Shown: piece by piece, positions 1,915 through 9,824 of the stretch
How the letters are laid out: every line of letters starts with the position of its first letter
Numbering within the stretch: the stretch's first letter is position 1
Source: Campylobacteraceae bacterium
GTDB taxonomy: Bacteria; Campylobacterota; Campylobacteria; Campylobacterales; Sulfurovaceae
Length of the DNA stretch: 44,124 nt
Assembly (NCBI GenBank): GCA_027063105.1
Contig: JAMOSL010000110.1
Coordinates: 1 to 44,124, forward strand
Reading direction: 5' to 3'
Notes under the pieces: model-generated
What the model was told of the DNA's origin: nothing
The model's input: the letters and a program-made list of their open reading frames with translations, nothing else
Databases searched by the model: none
Position numbers and translations under genes: made by a program

Positions 1915-2933
1915 ATTTTATAATGCGATGAAGAGTATAAAAATGGCTTTTCTATAAAATGCCATGATAAAAGAGATATAAACAATAAAATAGAAAATAA
2001 AAATATTAAACCAGATATTAAATTATCAAATAGGTTATAATTTATAAATACTTGTATTATTGGGAAATGCCATATATATAAACCGAATGAAATATCTCCG
2101 AATTTTCCCCAATTACCAAGATATTTAAATAGTATAGAAAAATATATAATAACTACTGCTAATGATATTGGATATAATGGGTATATTGGGGTTATCCAAT
2201 GATGTATATATAGAATAAATATTGATATGGATAATATATAGTTAATTTTTAATTGAAAGTAATCGTAGTATTGATATAGTAATGCTCCTGATATAAAAAA
2301 TGCTAATTGTGAAGGTATTTGTTTCTCTAATTTAAAAAATATTTCATTATCTGTTATATTAAAAAGCCATAACATTATTATAGAATAAACTATTGCTAAT
2401 ATATAAATAAATGAATAAGTGAATAACTTATTAATTTTCTTTGAGATATATGCAATAAATGGTACTAAGATATAAAACATAATCTCTATTTTGATAGTCC
2501 ATAATGCTCCATTAACCGTATCTATTGGATTTTGTTCAAATACTCCAGCTAGTGTAGGTTGAATAAAATTGAATGTGAATAAATTGAATATAATATAGTT
2601 AATAAATTCTATATTGAAGTAATTTTCAATATTCTTTGAGGATATAAAGAATAAAAACAATGCTGAAAATAGAATAACTAATATGTATGCTGGAGCAATT
2701 CGCCTAATTCTTTTTGACAAGTAGTGAATATATGAGTAACTTTTATCAAAACTCATAAAAATAAGAAATCCACTGACTATGAAAAATCCATCAACAGCAA
2801 TTATAGAACTAAAATATCTACTAAAACTTTCAATAATATTAATTTTTGATAACTCTGCTAAATGAACGATTACAACTATTAATGATAAAATAATTCGTAG
2901 TAAATCAAAATTATTTATATTTCTATCTAACAT
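1911..2933 (-). CDS. Acyltransferase family 3 membrane protein (OatA/WecH-like)
   Basis: [44 protein letters not shown] motifs and multiple hydrophobic helices. Confidence 0.88.
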
Positions 2934-3417
2934 AATCTTTTCTTCTTATTTTAACTCTTTGCGAATGTGTAATTGCAATTGCCATGGCATCTGTAATATC
3001 TAAAGGTTTAATTTCTTTTTTTATACCTAATAATCGTCTTACCATAAATGATACTTGTTCTTTAGTTGCTTTACCATTTCCTGTTATTGCTTTTTTAACT
3101 TGAAGAGGTGTATATTCATAAAAATACCCTATTTCTTCAACCATTTTTAGGGATATAGCTCCTCTAAACTGTGCTAATTTCAAAACACTTTTGGGATTAT
3201 GTGCAAAAAAAATATCTTCTATAGCAACCTCATCAATTTCATGTGATTTTATAATAATATTTAATCCTTCAAGTAACTCTAACAACTGCTCTTGAATAAT
3301 CAAAGATTTTATCTTAATAACTCCTGCTTCAATTAGCGAATAACTTTTATTTTGATTAACAAAAAGCACACAATAGCCTAAATTTCGACTCCCAGGATCA
3401 ATTCCTAATATAAACAT
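2923..3417 (-). CDS. ruvC: Crossover junction endodeoxyribonuclease RuvC
   Basis: [66 protein letters not shown] motifs. Confidence 0.95.
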
Positions 3418-3501
3418 ATTAACTCCAATCTAATATCTAATTTTATCCTACTTTAGATAAAATGTAATTTCTTAGCACACATAAATAACCTTAGGATTTA
3501 A

Positions 3502-4815
3502 ATGATGAATATTGGAGAAAAAGTATTAAAAGCATTACAAGCAGAGTTATCAGAGATAGAGTATAGTAGATATATTAATAAGTTAACTTATGAAGAGAGT
3601 CTTTCAAGAGAAGATATAATATGTTTTATTGCTCCAAATATACTTATAGCAAAATGGGTACAAACAAACTATGGAGAGAAAATCTCAAACTTATTTGAAA
3701 TAGAAAATAACTACAAACCTACTGTTCAAATCTCTATTGAGAGAACATTAAAAAACAAAGAAACAAAGAATATAGCGATAGAAGCAAAAAATAACTCAAA
3801 AAGTACAAAATTAAATCCATCTTTTACATTTGATAGTTTTATTGTAGGAGACTCAAATCAATTTGCATATACAACAGCTAAAAGTGCTGCAGAAAAGCCT
3901 GGAGAGCAATATAATCCCTTATTTATATATGGAGGCGTTGGATTAGGTAAAAGTCATTTATTACAGGCTATAGGAAATTATCATCTAAATATGGGGAAAA
4001 TTGTTATATACACTACACTAGAACAATTTATGAACAGTTTTATATCCCATTTAAGAAGCCAAAGTATGGCTAGATTCAGAGAGAAATTTAGAGAATGTGA
4101 TTTATTACTTATTGATGATATACAATTCCTTAGTAGTAAAGAACAAACTCAAGATGAATTTTTTCATACATTCAATGAACTTCATATAGCTAAAAAACAG
4201 ATTGTAATGACATCAGATAGACAACCAAATAAAATCATAGGACTTGTAGATAGATTAAAAAGTCGCTTTGAATGGGGACTAATGGCTGATATTCAACCTC
4301 CAGGACTAGAAACTAAGATAGCAATCATACAAAAGAAGTGTGAATTAGATGGTATTAGATTAAATAGAGAAATTATTAACTATATAGCTGTAAATATGGG
4401 TGATAATATTAGAGAAATAGAAGGTACGATTATTAAAATAAATGCTTTGAGTGCAATGCTAAATCAACCAATTAATCTAGAATTTGCAAAAAATGCAATA
4501 GAAGGACAACTTAAAGAAACAAGAGAAAATATTACTATTAATCATATAGTAGAGATAATATCTAAAGAATTGAATGTTAAACCATCAGAGATAAGATCAA
4601 AGAAAAGGACTAAGAAAGTTGTACATGCAAGACGAATTATCATATATTTAGCTAGAAATTTAACTCTAAATTCTATGCCACAAATTGCACTATATTTTGG
4701 AATGAAAGATCATACTGCAATTAGTCATACGATGAAAAAGATTACTGAATTTTTAGAGAGTAATAAGAAATTTAAAGTTCAACTAGAAGAATTATCTAAT
4801 AAAATTAATAAATAA
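3502..4815 (+). CDS. dnaA: Chromosomal replication initiator DnaA
   Basis: NPLFIYGGVGLGKSHLLQAIGN Walker A, LLLIDDIQFL Walker B, C-terminal HARRIIIYLARNLT...FGMKDHTAISHTMKKI DNA-binding signature. Confidence 0.98.
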   Translation: MMNIGEKVLKALQAELSEIEYSRYINKLTYEESLSREDIICFIAPNILIAKWVQTNYGEKISNLFEIENNYKPTVQISIERTLKNKETKNIAIEAKNNSKSTKLNPSFTFDSFIVGDSNQFAYTTAKSAAEKPGEQYNPLFIYGGVGLGKSHLLQAIGNYHLNMGKIVIYTTLEQFMNSFISHLRSQSMARFREKFRECDLLLIDDIQFLSSKEQTQDEFFHTFNELHIAKKQIVMTSDRQPNKIIGLVDRLKSRFEWGLMADIQPPGLETKIAIIQKKCELDGIRLNREIINYIAVNMGDNIREIEGTIIKINALSAMLNQPINLEFAKNAIEGQLKETRENITINHIVEIISKELNVKPSEIRSKKRTKKVVHARRIIIYLARNLTLNSMPQIALYFGMKDHTAISHTMKKITEFLESNKKFKVQLEELSNKINK

Positions 4816-4988
4816 TTGAATATAAATATAGTTTTAATAGGGATAAAAACCTGTACAATACAATAAAATACGTGAATAACTTTTTCAAAATACACGTGAA
4901 TAACTATGTGAATAACTTTTTAGCACGTGAATAACTTTTTTTTAGCACGTGAATAACTTTTTAACTCAATCTTTATGTGAATAACTAT

Positions 4989-5053
4989 GTGAATAACTTT
5001 ACCCTTTTAAAGCCCATTCCTTGGGCTTTTGAGAAAGTTATTCACGTTTTCAC
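4989..5053. repeat. oriC palindromic repeat copy 1 (57-nt inverted repeat plus GTTTTCAC)
   Basis: gtgaataactttacccttttaaagcccattccttgggcttttgagaaagttattcacgttttcac; arms GTGAATAACTTT/AAAGTTATTCAC and AAAGCCCA/TGGGCTTT. Confidence 0.9.
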
Positions 5054-5412
5054 ATTGTGTTAAATGACTTTTTAGTTAACAAATAATTAACGGTAAACTT
5101 ATTTTAATATTATAAAAAAACATATACTTTTAAAAGGTATTTTTTCACTAAAAATTTTAAAAATATATATTATTATTATTAATAATAATATAAAGGATAA
5201 AAAATTATAAAAAAATCGCAAAAATCAAAAACAATTTTGAAAAAAAAACATCTTTTAAGGCTAAATTTGAAGAAAAATTAGATATAATTAAAGGTCTAAA
5301 ATAACACGTGAATAACTTTTAAAAAAGTTGAAATATCATGTAAATAAGTGGGCTAAAGAAAAAAAGTTTAAGGTCTAGATGTGAATAGACGTGAATAACA
5401 TGTGAATAACAT

Positions 5413-5477
5413 GTGAATAACTTTACCCCTCAAAAGCCCATTCCTTGGGCTTTTGAGAAAGTTATTCACGTTTTCAC
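5413..5477. repeat. oriC palindromic repeat copy 2 (57-nt inverted repeat plus GTTTTCAC)
   Basis: gtgaataactttacccctcaaaagcccattccttgggcttttgagaaagttattcacgttttcac; differs from copy 1 at 3 positions by eye; inner stem CTCAAAAGCCCA/TGGGCTTTTGAG is perfect. Confidence 0.9.
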
Positions 5478-5524
5478 GTGATACTACTACTACTACTACT
5501 TACTAAAAAAAGAAAAGAGGCACA

Positions 5525-6595
5525 ATGAAAATCAGAATCGAAAAGATTTTAATCGAATCCATACTAATCAATTTACAACCGTTTTTAGAAAAAAAAGATG
5601 CTAGTCAAATAACATCGCATATTTTCTTTGAAGCTAAAAATAATATATCAACTATCAAAGCAACAGATCAAGAAATAGGTTTAGAAATAAAAACTGATAA
5701 AATCAATATAGAGGTTGATGGATCTTTTACAGTCAATGGTAAAAAATTACTTGATATTATTAGAATATTAAAAGATGAAGAGATAATATTTGAAATTTTA
5801 AAAGATAATTTAATTATTAAACAAAAACATTCAAAATTCAAACTACCAACATTTAATGCTAATTCTTATCCTGAATTTCCTTCAATTGAAAATAAATCAA
5901 AAATATCTTTAGATTCAATGGAACTAATAAAAAATCTAAAAAAAATATCTCTGAGCATAGATAATAATAATCCTAAGTTTGAATTAAATGGAGCGTTGAT
6001 AAATATAAAATCAAATTCTACCGATTTAGTTGGAACAGATACTAGAAGATTATCAATAGCATCAATTGATAATAATAATTTTAATGAAGAGTTAGCTCTT
6101 ATAATCCCTAAAAAAGCTATTTTAGAAATACAAAAGTTATTTTTAGATAAAATTTCAATTCATTACGATGAAACAAATATTATTATTACTAACGGAAATT
6201 ATTTTTTTTACACAAGATTAATAAATGGGAGATATCCAGACTATCAGAGAATTATTCCAAATAATATAAAATATAATTTAACTCTTCCAAAAAAAGAGAT
6301 GGTAGATTCAATAAAAATGATAACAACAATATCACAAGATATAGAACTAAATATATTTCCTGATAAGATAATATTTAAATCATTAGCATCTGATAATATT
6401 GAAGCAAAAACTCAATTAAGTATAAATACAAATATTCAAAAGGAATTTAAATTGGTTTTTAATAGTCGCTATATACTTGATTTTTTATCTCAAATAGAAA
6501 ATAATTATTTTTCATTAGAACTAAATGAAGAGAACTTACCTTTTGTAGTTAAAGATAATAATTTTATAACAATCATAATGCCAATAATAATTTAA
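5525..6595 (+). CDS. dnaN: DNA polymerase III beta sliding clamp
   Basis: Position after dnaA; FTVNGKKLLDIIRIL, GTDTRRLSIA, NGRYPDYQRIIP motifs. Confidence 0.96.
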   Translation: MKIRIEKILIESILINLQPFLEKKDASQITSHIFFEAKNNISTIKATDQEIGLEIKTDKINIEVDGSFTVNGKKLLDIIRILKDEEIIFEILKDNLIIKQKHSKFKLPTFNANSYPEFPSIENKSKISLDSMELIKNLKKISLSIDNNNPKFELNGALINIKSNSTDLVGTDTRRLSIASIDNNNFNEELALIIPKKAILEIQKLFLDKISIHYDETNIIITNGNYFFYTRLINGRYPDYQRIIPNNIKYNLTLPKKEMVDSIKMITTISQDIELNIFPDKIIFKSLASDNIEAKTQLSINTNIQKEFKLVFNSRYILDFLSQIENNYFSLELNEENLPFVVKDNNFITIIMPIII

Positions 6596-6607: not shown

Positions 6608-8224
6608 ATGTCTAAATATATATTTGTAACTGGTGGAGTATTAAGCTCTTTAGGAAAAGGAATTACAGCTGCTAGTATTGGTACATTATTAAAACATTCT
6701 GGACAAAGAGTAGGAGTTTTAAAACTTGACCCGTACATAAATGTTGATCCAGGGACTATGAGTCCTTTAGAACACGGTGAAGTTTTTGTAACGAAAGATG
6801 GAGCAGAAACTGATTTGGATTTAGGTCACTATGAGAGATTTCTTGATACAGCACTAACTAAAAAAAATAATTTTACTACAGGTCAAATATATAAAACTGT
6901 CATAGAAAATGAACGAGAAGGTAAATACCTTGGAAAAACCATACAGGTAGTACCTCATATTGTTGATGAAATAAAAGAAAGAATTATATTAGCTGGTGAA
7001 AATAGAGATATTCTGATAGTTGAATTAGGTGGAACAACAGGAGACATAGAGGGTTTACCTTTTTTAGAATCTATTAGACAAATGAAACATGAATTAGGTA
7101 AAGAGAATGTGATGAATATTCATGTAACTTTATTGCCTTATATAAAAACAGCTGGTGAACTAAAAACAAAACCTACACAACATTCTGTTCAAGAATTAAG
7201 AAGAATTGGTATTGCACCACATATGCTAATTTTAAGAGCTGAACAACCTGTACCTAAAGATTTAAAAAGAAAAATTGCTTATAACTGTGATGTTGAAGAG
7301 GATAGCGTTATTGATGCTATAGATGCTTTAACAATATACAGAGTACCAATGAATTTTCTAGCACAAGATATATTAACTCCTATAGCCAAACAATTAAATC
7401 TTCCTGAATTAAAACCAAACATGGATGAATGGAATGACTTAGTTACAAAAATAATTAAACCAAAGAATAGAGTAACTATAGCTTTTGTAGGTAAATATTT
7501 AGATTTAAAAGAGTCTTACAAATCTTTAACTGAAGCATTAATCCACTCAGGAGCTCATTTTGATACAGATGTTCAAATAGAATGGGTTGACAGTGAAAAA
7601 ATAGAAGAGGATGGTGCTAAAAAATACTTTCAAACTTGTGATGGAATATTAGTTGCTGGTGGATTTGGGAAAAGAGGAATAGAGGGTAAAATAAAAGCAA
7701 TTGAATACGCTAGAATAAATAAAATACCATTCTTAGGAATATGTTTAGGTATGCAACTAGCTATGATTGAATTTGCCAGAAATGTATTAAATTTAGAAGA
7801 TGTAAACTCTGTTGAATTTAAAGAGAATCCTAAAAATCCAATAATATATTTAATTGACCAATTTATAGATGCTAGTGGAGATAATCAACTTAGAACTTCT
7901 GTATCTCCAATGGGTGGAACTTTAAGATTAGGTGAATATGAGTGTCATACAAAAGTTAATTCTAATTTAGCAAATGCATATAAATCAAAAACAATTTATG
8001 AGAGACATAGACACAGATACGAAGCAAATCCAATTTATAAAGAAGCATTAAAAAATAAAGGAATGGATATTACTGGAGAATCAAATGGACTAATTGAAGC
8101 AATTGAAATAACAGATCATCCTTGGTTCTTAGGTGTTCAATTTCATCCAGAATTTACATCAAGATTACAAAATCCAAATCCTGCAATATTAGCATTTGTA
8201 GAAGCATCAATTAAAAATAAATAA
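6608..8224 (+). CDS. pyrG: CTP synthase
   Basis: [23 protein letters not shown]; glutaminase domain [26 protein letters not shown]. Confidence 0.98.
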
Positions 8225-8225
8225 T

Positions 8226-9824
8226 TTGAATTATAACTATCCAAAAATAAATCAAAAAATTTTAGAAGAGAATATATTAAACCGTTTTAATAAAGATGGT
8301 TTTTTATCTCTCAAAGATTTACCAAATCCCTCTTTATTTAAAGATATGGAGAAAGCTACTAAAAGAATAATCAAAGCTATTAAAAATAAAGAAAAAATTA
8401 TATTAATTGGTGATTATGATGTTGATGGGGTTGTCTCAACTACTTTAGTTAAAACTTTTTTTAATGAAATAAATATTAAATTAGATTGGATTATTCCTAA
8501 CCGTTTTAAAGATGGATATGGACTTAGTCCGACACTTATGCCAAAAATAGAAGGTTATGATTTAGCTATTACTGTAGATAATGGAATATCAGCTATTAAT
8601 GCTTCTAGAATGTGCAAAGAAAAAGGTATAGATTTAATTATTACAGATCATCATCTATTAGCTTCTGAAGTTCCTGATGCTTATGCAATTATAGACCAAA
8701 AACAAAATGATTGTAGTTTTCCTTATAGCGAAATATGTGGAGCTCAAATAGCTTGGTATCTTATTGCTTCTCTAAAAAACGCATTAAATGTCAAGATTGA
8801 TATAAAATCTTATCTTGAATTAGTATCTATAGCTATTATAGCTGATATGATGCCCTTAAAGCATATAAACAGAGCAATGGTTACCTTTGGTATTGAATTA
8901 ATTAATAAAAGCACTAGACCGTCTTTATTAGCCTTTAAAGAGCATATAAATAAAAATAAAATAGAGAGTGATGATATAGGATTTAATATAGCACCTATCT
9001 TAAATAGTGCAGGAAGAATGAAAGATGCCTCTTATTCAGTAGATTTTTTAATGAGTAATAATATATATGAGGCAAGAAGTAAACTAGAAAAGTTGATAGA
9101 CTTTAATAATAAGAGAAAAGAAATAGAACAAAGAATTACAAATGAAGCTATATCTTTAGTTGATAAAAGTGATGCTGTTTTGGTATTAACTGGAGATGAT
9201 TGGCATGAAGGCGTATTAGGAATTATATCTGCCAGAGTTTCAAGACATTATTCTAAACCAAGTATTATTTTAACAAAGAGTGAAAATGGGGATTTAAAAG
9301 GTAGTGGAAGAAGCTTTGGAAATTGTAATTTATTTGAAATAACAAATGAATGTAGAGATTATTTAAATAAATTCGGTGGACATTATTCTGCTATTGGATT
9401 AAGTTTAGATTATGATAAATTAGATGATTTTAGAGATAAATTACAAGTAGAATATCATAAAAAGAATTATAAAGAAAGTTTATTTGATCCAGATATTATA
9501 GGTGAATTAGAGTTTAAAGATATCAACTTTAATTTGACTAATATGATGAAAAAATATGAACCTTATGGACAAGAAAATATAAGACCAAAATTCATTACAA
9601 AAGACCTAGAGATTCTTCAAGTTGACACGATGGGAAAATCTAAAGAACATCTTAGATTTGCTTTTAAAAAAGATGGATTTATATTAACAGGAGTTAAATT
9701 TAAAACAACCGAAAAATTTTTAAATGGTCAAAAAGTATCTATATCATATACAATTAATGAAAATAATTTTAGAGGTAAAACAAATCTTCAATTAATGATT
9801 GATAAAATAGTAATTGTTATCTAA
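8226..9824 (+). CDS. recJ: Single-stranded-DNA-specific exonuclease RecJ (TTG start)
   Basis: GDYDVDGVVSTTL, TVDNGISA, ITDHHL, NSAGRM, GSGRSFG...FGGHYSAIGLS motifs. Confidence 0.95.
   Translation: MNYNYPKINQKILEENILNRFNKDGFLSLKDLPNPSLFKDMEKATKRIIKAIKNKEKIILIGDYDVDGVVSTTLVKTFFNEINIKLDWIIPNRFKDGYGLSPTLMPKIEGYDLAITVDNGISAINASRMCKEKGIDLIITDHHLLASEVPDAYAIIDQKQNDCSFPYSEICGAQIAWYLIASLKNALNVKIDIKSYLELVSIAIIADMMPLKHINRAMVTFGIELINKSTRPSLLAFKEHINKNKIESDDIGFNIAPILNSAGRMKDASYSVDFLMSNNIYEARSKLEKLIDFNNKRKEIEQRITNEAISLVDKSDAVLVLTGDDWHEGVLGIISARVSRHYSKPSIILTKSENGDLKGSGRSFGNCNLFEITNECRDYLNKFGGHYSAIGLSLDYDKLDDFRDKLQVEYHKKNYKESLFDPDIIGELEFKDINFNLTNMMKKYEPYGQENIRPKFITKDLEILQVDTMGKSKEHLRFAFKKDGFILTGVKFKTTEKFLNGQKVSISYTINENNFRGKTNLQLMIDKIVIVI

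Follow-up and report, generated by a model that had tools for sequence, protein, structure and literature searches.

A probable oriC2-type chromosome origin with expanded DnaA box arrays and a trio-less module copy in a relative of Sulfurovum

Chromosome origins of Arcobacter, Sulfurimonas and Wolinella are bipartite, lie at ruvC-dnaA-dnaN and carry DnaA boxes with a TTCAC core in oppositely directed groups (PMC5043019). In the mapped Campylobacterota origins unwinding is confined to the dnaA-dnaN gap (oriC2), and oriC1 and oriC2 contact one another in related species (PMC5043019). In Campylobacterota the roles of oriC1 and of boxes pointing in opposite directions are still an open question (PMC5043019). 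For the opening site itself, the rule for a basal unwinding system (BUS) asks for three or more DnaA-trios lying no further than 16 bp from a DnaA box (PMC8287927, PMC8235120).

We analysed a 44,124-nucleotide stretch of DNA (the window) in which ruvC (minus strand), dnaA, an intergenic gap, dnaN, pyrG and recJ follow one another from left to right. The closest named relatives of its DnaA are Sulfurovum metagenome assemblies (70-73%). Downstream of dnaN lie pyrG and recJ (window 6608-9824); in most Campylobacterota gyrB is found there (PMC5043019). The features discussed below are as follows.

2923..3417, minus strand: ruvC, left neighbour of dnaA (TIGR00228, 197.5 bits; Pfam PF02075)
3418..3501, no strand: ruvC-dnaA gap, the oriC1 position, 84 bp, free of DnaA boxes
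3502..4815, plus strand: dnaA (TIGR00362, 481.9 bits)
4825..4868, plus strand: segment homologous to the ATATAAT/first-box region of relatives (the start of their oriC2), with decayed boxes (alignment to relative G009, P=0.003)
4870..4998, minus strand: left array of leftward boxes (4872, 4896, 4908, 4927, 4949, 4977, 4989)
4989..5045, no strand: palindrome copy 1; with its flanking box pair, a trio-less copy of the start module (4987-5053)
5038..5053, plus strand: rightward box pair TTATTCAC-GTTTTCAC of copy 1, with no CTA trios after it
5100..5215, no strand: AT core, 7% GC, the least stable DNA of the window and a possible second DUE
5308..5421, minus strand: right array of leftward boxes (5308, 5391, 5402, 5413)
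5413..5469, no strand: palindrome copy 2, in the putative working start module
5429..5457, no strand: inner hairpin of copy 2, lineage-specific by folding and family spacer comparison
5462..5477, plus strand: DUE-proximal box pair TTATTCAC-GTTTTCAC, conserved in the family
5484..5501, plus strand: DnaA-trios, five CTA and one CTT, conserved in relatives; the trio strand is the minus strand
5525..6595, plus strand: dnaN (TIGR00663, 231.6 bits)

The window contains 15 occurrences of the box TTATTCAC where 2.7 would be expected, and 13 of these strong, TTCAC-core boxes fall at 4872-5469. Eleven point leftward; the two that point rightward are the right arms of the palindromes, giving the opposed groups, with a DUE-proximal box facing the DUE, that typify oriC2 in Campylobacterota. 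Genome-wide, 13 of the 18 perfect copies of GTGAATAAC lie in the dnaA-dnaN gap. The 3' end of the gap aligns with that of relative G009 (P=0.003). No box was found in the 84-bp ruvC-dnaA gap or in the 250 bp upstream of dnaA; the ruvC-dnaA gap of relatives has 1-4. By its sequence, the locus fits the chromosome origin, as the DUE-bearing half of a Campylobacterota-type origin at ruvC-dnaA-dnaN, and the original prediction of an oriC here is upheld by its position between dnaA and dnaN, the density of DnaA boxes, the DnaA-trios and the homology to the oriC2 of relatives. We call it an oriC2-type origin and not a bipartite one because the ruvC-dnaA box cluster is absent.

The most conspicuous feature of the gap is a direct repeat (4987-5053 and 5411-5477) whose copies are identical at 64 of 67 positions, flanks included, and lie 424 bp apart; a count by eye had given 62 of 65. 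Each copy contains a 57-nt inverted repeat, GTGAATAACTTT...AAAGTTATTCAC, with an inner AAAGCCC-ATTCCTT-GGGCTTT hairpin. The box scan and single-strand folding bear out the prediction that the outer arms carry DnaA-type boxes (inverted TTATTCAC in both palindromes) and enclose a strong hairpin: copy 2 folds at -22.3 kcal/mol (z -11.5) and copy 1 at -16.1 kcal/mol (z -7.4), with 0 of 200 shuffles as good in either case. The inner stem of copy 2 is a perfect 12 pairs; all three mismatches between the copies fall on the left side of the copy 1 inner stem, leaving its GC hairpin about four pairs shorter. A search of the whole 1.7 Mb found neither repeat nor hairpin at any other place in the assembly. 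The palindrome is not a dispersed repeat, and it is not due to chance either. Its copy number depends on the assembly (1.70 Mb in 216 contigs, 81% complete).

The role first proposed for these palindromes, cruciforms as an origin architecture, is not supported in the form given. The spacer hairpin is the strongest among 124 family spacers, whose mean z is -0.38, which rules out a conserved spacer hairpin as a family feature; since the hairpin is lineage-specific, cruciform extrusion is no conserved part of the mechanism. Supercoiling might still extrude cruciforms that position DnaA or absorb torsion, as the copy 2 fold (-22.3 kcal/mol, z -11.5) would allow, but we regard this as very improbable: the hairpin is unconserved, the copy 1 inner stem is partly lost, and pairing would use up boxes that DnaA needs to read as double strand. 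Roles in sequestration or termination found no support. A transcription terminator or RNA element between dnaA and dnaN would suit a GC stem that lies between runs of A and T, but a search for a terminator-like site returned none and an Rfam search gave no family at a meaningful score; because just two copies exist in the genome, the hairpin is not a standard terminator, and we give this explanation equally little chance. The loop ATTCCTT (5016-5022 and 5440-5446) sits in both copies inside CCATTCCTT, which agrees at 8 of 9 positions with TYATTCCWT, the consensus of the ATP-DnaA box in H. pylori (P=0.03 for the window spacer). The family shows no enrichment of the consensus (11 against 11.7 expected), and the loop is a weak candidate for such a box, unconserved in relatives.

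Comparison of the dnaA-dnaN regions of relatives, which had been put forward as a check, located the conserved part of the origin. To the right of copy 2, the pair TTATTCAC-GTTTTCAC (5462-5477) is followed by 6 bases, six trios (CTA five times, then CTT, at 5484-5501) and A-rich DNA up to dnaN, and almost all of the 130 family genomes carry the same pair and trios at the corresponding position. In copy 1 the pair is present but CTA trios are missing. We predict that the conserved opening site comprises the right-arm pair of copy 2 and the trios beside dnaN.

The prediction had instead centred on the AT-rich core between the palindromes. In one respect this stands, as the least stable 50 bp of the 44 kb (starts 5160-5164) lie inside the core, but what the family conserves as its putative unwinding element is the tract of trios to the right of copy 2. 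DnaA complexes on both sides of the core are possible, given that the boxes face inward and the core is least stable, and the core may help opening or be a second opening site. That the least stable stretch is the core, and not trio-proximal DNA, counts against the explanation we prefer. In its stronger form, the alternative makes the core the main or a second DUE, with the copy 1 pair (5038-5053) and the leftward boxes at 5308-5413 driving DnaA filaments inward. The low stability at about 5160-5212, the inward-facing boxes on either side, and two relatives (G087 and G123) whose least stable DNA also lies in the expanded part and not past the trios all speak for it. Yet copy 1 has no adjoining CTA trios, the core has no detectable homology to relatives, and in two further relatives (G074 and G064) it is the DNA directly past the trios that is least stable; unwinding in mapped relatives begins 8-18 bp from an R1-type box (PMC5043019), and in H. 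pylori it is trio-dependent (PMC8287927, PMC8235120). We consider this reading rather unlikely. The core gave no significant alignment to the modules of relatives (P 0.17-0.70), and on this ground we rejected a decayed ancestral DUE.

Across the family the module consists of two leftward boxes, a spacer, a rightward pair and trios, and the palindrome is, as far as sequence comparison can tell, this species' version of it. GTGAA-to-TTCAC distances in the family cluster at 58-59 (98 counts) and 68-69 (103 counts); minor distances of 79, 89, 47-49 and 37 are few, and some of these are chance GTGAA matches. Boxes 5391 and 5402 retain the family distances of 69 and 58 to the DUE-proximal TTCAC, and box 5413, which makes up the palindrome's left arm, is an additional one lying 11 bp closer to the pair. 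From the distances to the DUE-proximal pair, box centres are therefore about whole helical turns apart. Because the family distances share ancestry, independent support for phasing comes from neighbour spacings within expanded origins, which gave R=0.70 at 10.5 bp (n=25, p ~4e-6, G087 left out; spacings entered by hand, with periods of 10 to 11 fitting equally well); the box-count and distance statistics were picked after the sequences had been seen. Twelve boxes in G087 are exactly 21 bp apart, and G074 has kept a 20-22 bp spacing while its spacers diverged. The left array of the window is looser (24, 12, 19, 22, 28, 12), and the inner hairpin stands outside the spacing rule. Conserved whole-turn spacing between the leftward boxes and the DUE-proximal pair predicts a single face-aligned DnaA complex.

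The extra boxes might instead mainly titrate DnaA or regulate dnaA/dnaN transcription, and so time initiation without taking part in opening. In favour are the concentration of perfect GTGAATAAC sites in the gap (13 of 18 in the genome) and, in the family, a TATAAT-like site immediately to the left of where the boxes start; helical phasing and the copying of a whole loading module nevertheless exceed what titration needs. As the principal function this seems unlikely to us, and it is compatible with the explanation we prefer.

Several observations on boxes and their surroundings stand apart from these questions. Most relatives conserve AAAAAAAAGATATAAT just left of the two leftward boxes of the dnaA-dnaN gap, probably as the -10 element of a promoter for dnaN that DnaA boxes overlap; in the window only a worn remnant of this stretch is left (4825-4868). 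Outside the origin, GTGAATAAC is several-fold rarer than its reversed letters in this genome and ten relatives, expanded and ordinary alike. It may be avoided there to spare DnaA titration, its stop codons contributing. We rejected such avoidance as a mark of expansion, the effect being family-wide and no different in expanded genomes. Among the few strong boxes beyond the origin is an inverted pair of perfect boxes after the groEL stop on another contig of the same assembly (C90; L231, 1495-1530), AAAAAAGTTATTCACAT-TCAAT-ATGTGAATAACTTTT, which resembles an intrinsic terminator.

The dnaA-dnaN gap of the window measures 709 bp from stop to start (4816-5524). Measured from gene match to gene match it is 712 bp, against a median of 207 bp in 129 relatives (usually about 150-250), and only G087 and G123 exceed it. 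Five of the 130 genomes have gaps above 450 bp with 10-25 strong boxes; most others have 0-2. On the DnaA tree the expansion amounts to four changes, in genera that are otherwise mostly short-gapped, which suggests about four independent origins within the family. Strong boxes are absent from the 250 bp upstream of dnaA in four of the five expanded genomes and in 8 of 124 others (Fisher p=2e-4), an association that is suggestive and unproven because it comprises only three phylogenetically independent pairs. Since expanded G064 keeps six upstream boxes, compensation for oriC1 is no strict rule. A clear trio-less copy of the pre-trio module occurs in two genomes only, the window's and G064 (a Sulfurovum MAG).

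G087 has the most extreme origin of the family, a gap of 1187 bp (L123) with about 25 strong boxes, including a tandem array of twelve at a perfect 21-bp period, and several inverted box pairs. At the other end, G016 (L127) has a gap of just 11 bp and is box-free upstream of dnaA, so either its origin is elsewhere or the genes have moved. Long trio tracts did not serve as a mark of expansion: a five-CTA run is present in four of the five expanded genomes but also in 15 of 124 others, the low count for G074 reflecting merely how the run was cut. An order-wide pattern search returned mostly unrelated matches, the pattern being too strict, and a search for a plasmid or viral source of the locus gave no match.

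The repeats could also have a non-adaptive source, either slippage during replication together with relaxed selection in AT-rich lineages that evolve fast, or a fault of the assembly. In the expanded genomes dnaA GC3 is low (Mann-Whitney p=0.008), and the DnaA branches of three of the five are long, which keeps relaxed selection a live rival. Recurrence in four lineages, the phased spacings of G074 despite diverged spacers, and a module copy of the same kind in G064 argue the other way, and we judge a non-adaptive origin improbable.

On balance we favour, as probable, the explanation that copy 2 belongs to a working start module, and that trio-less copy 1 and the arrays act as a second DnaA complex replacing oriC1. 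From the arrangement of sites we infer that DnaA would occupy the boxes of both modules. In the copy 2 module, composed of leftward boxes at 69, 58 and 47 bp, a spacer and the rightward pair, this pair would load DnaA on the trios at 5484-5501, and the DNA would open at the dnaN start. Copy 1 and the two added box arrays would form a second complex touching that on copy 2 and substituting for the lost oriC1 boxes upstream of dnaA; the extra boxes would increase the amount of DnaA nearby, and may adjust timing or the expression of dnaN. More tentatively, and with some doubt, several lineages may independently have turned a bipartite origin into a one-sided, iteron-like one, losing oriC1, gaining helically phased arrays with as many as 25 boxes and, in two cases, placing a trio-less "helper orisome" beside the real one. 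Natural variants of this kind, with oriC1 boxes absent and a trio-less module copy present, separate the parts of the origin and make the question of their roles testable.

Iteron plasmid origins carry phased, directly repeated initiator sites. The phased repeats 20-22 bp apart in G087 and G074 resemble them, a likeness we treat as a lead; unlike in iteron plasmids, the initiator here is presumably chromosomal DnaA, and the locus shows no similarity to the plasmid records compared. The opening site, with two adjoining boxes, a 6-bp spacer, five CTA and a CTT, is like the BUS of Bacillus subtilis and H. pylori (PMC8287927, PMC8235120), but the window has a second, trio-less box pair upstream (copy 1). 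With the bipartite oriC of Helicobacter pylori, Arcobacter butzleri, Sulfurimonas denitrificans and Wolinella succinogenes the locus shares its ruvC-dnaA-dnaN position and TTCAC cores, as well as a DUE-proximal box directed rightward to the trios with DUE-distal boxes opposed (PMC5043019). It differs in having no oriC1 boxes, an oriC2 more than three times the family length, 13 strong boxes where mapped Campylobacterota species have 8-10 across both halves (PMC5043019), and a loading module present twice, one copy of it trio-less.
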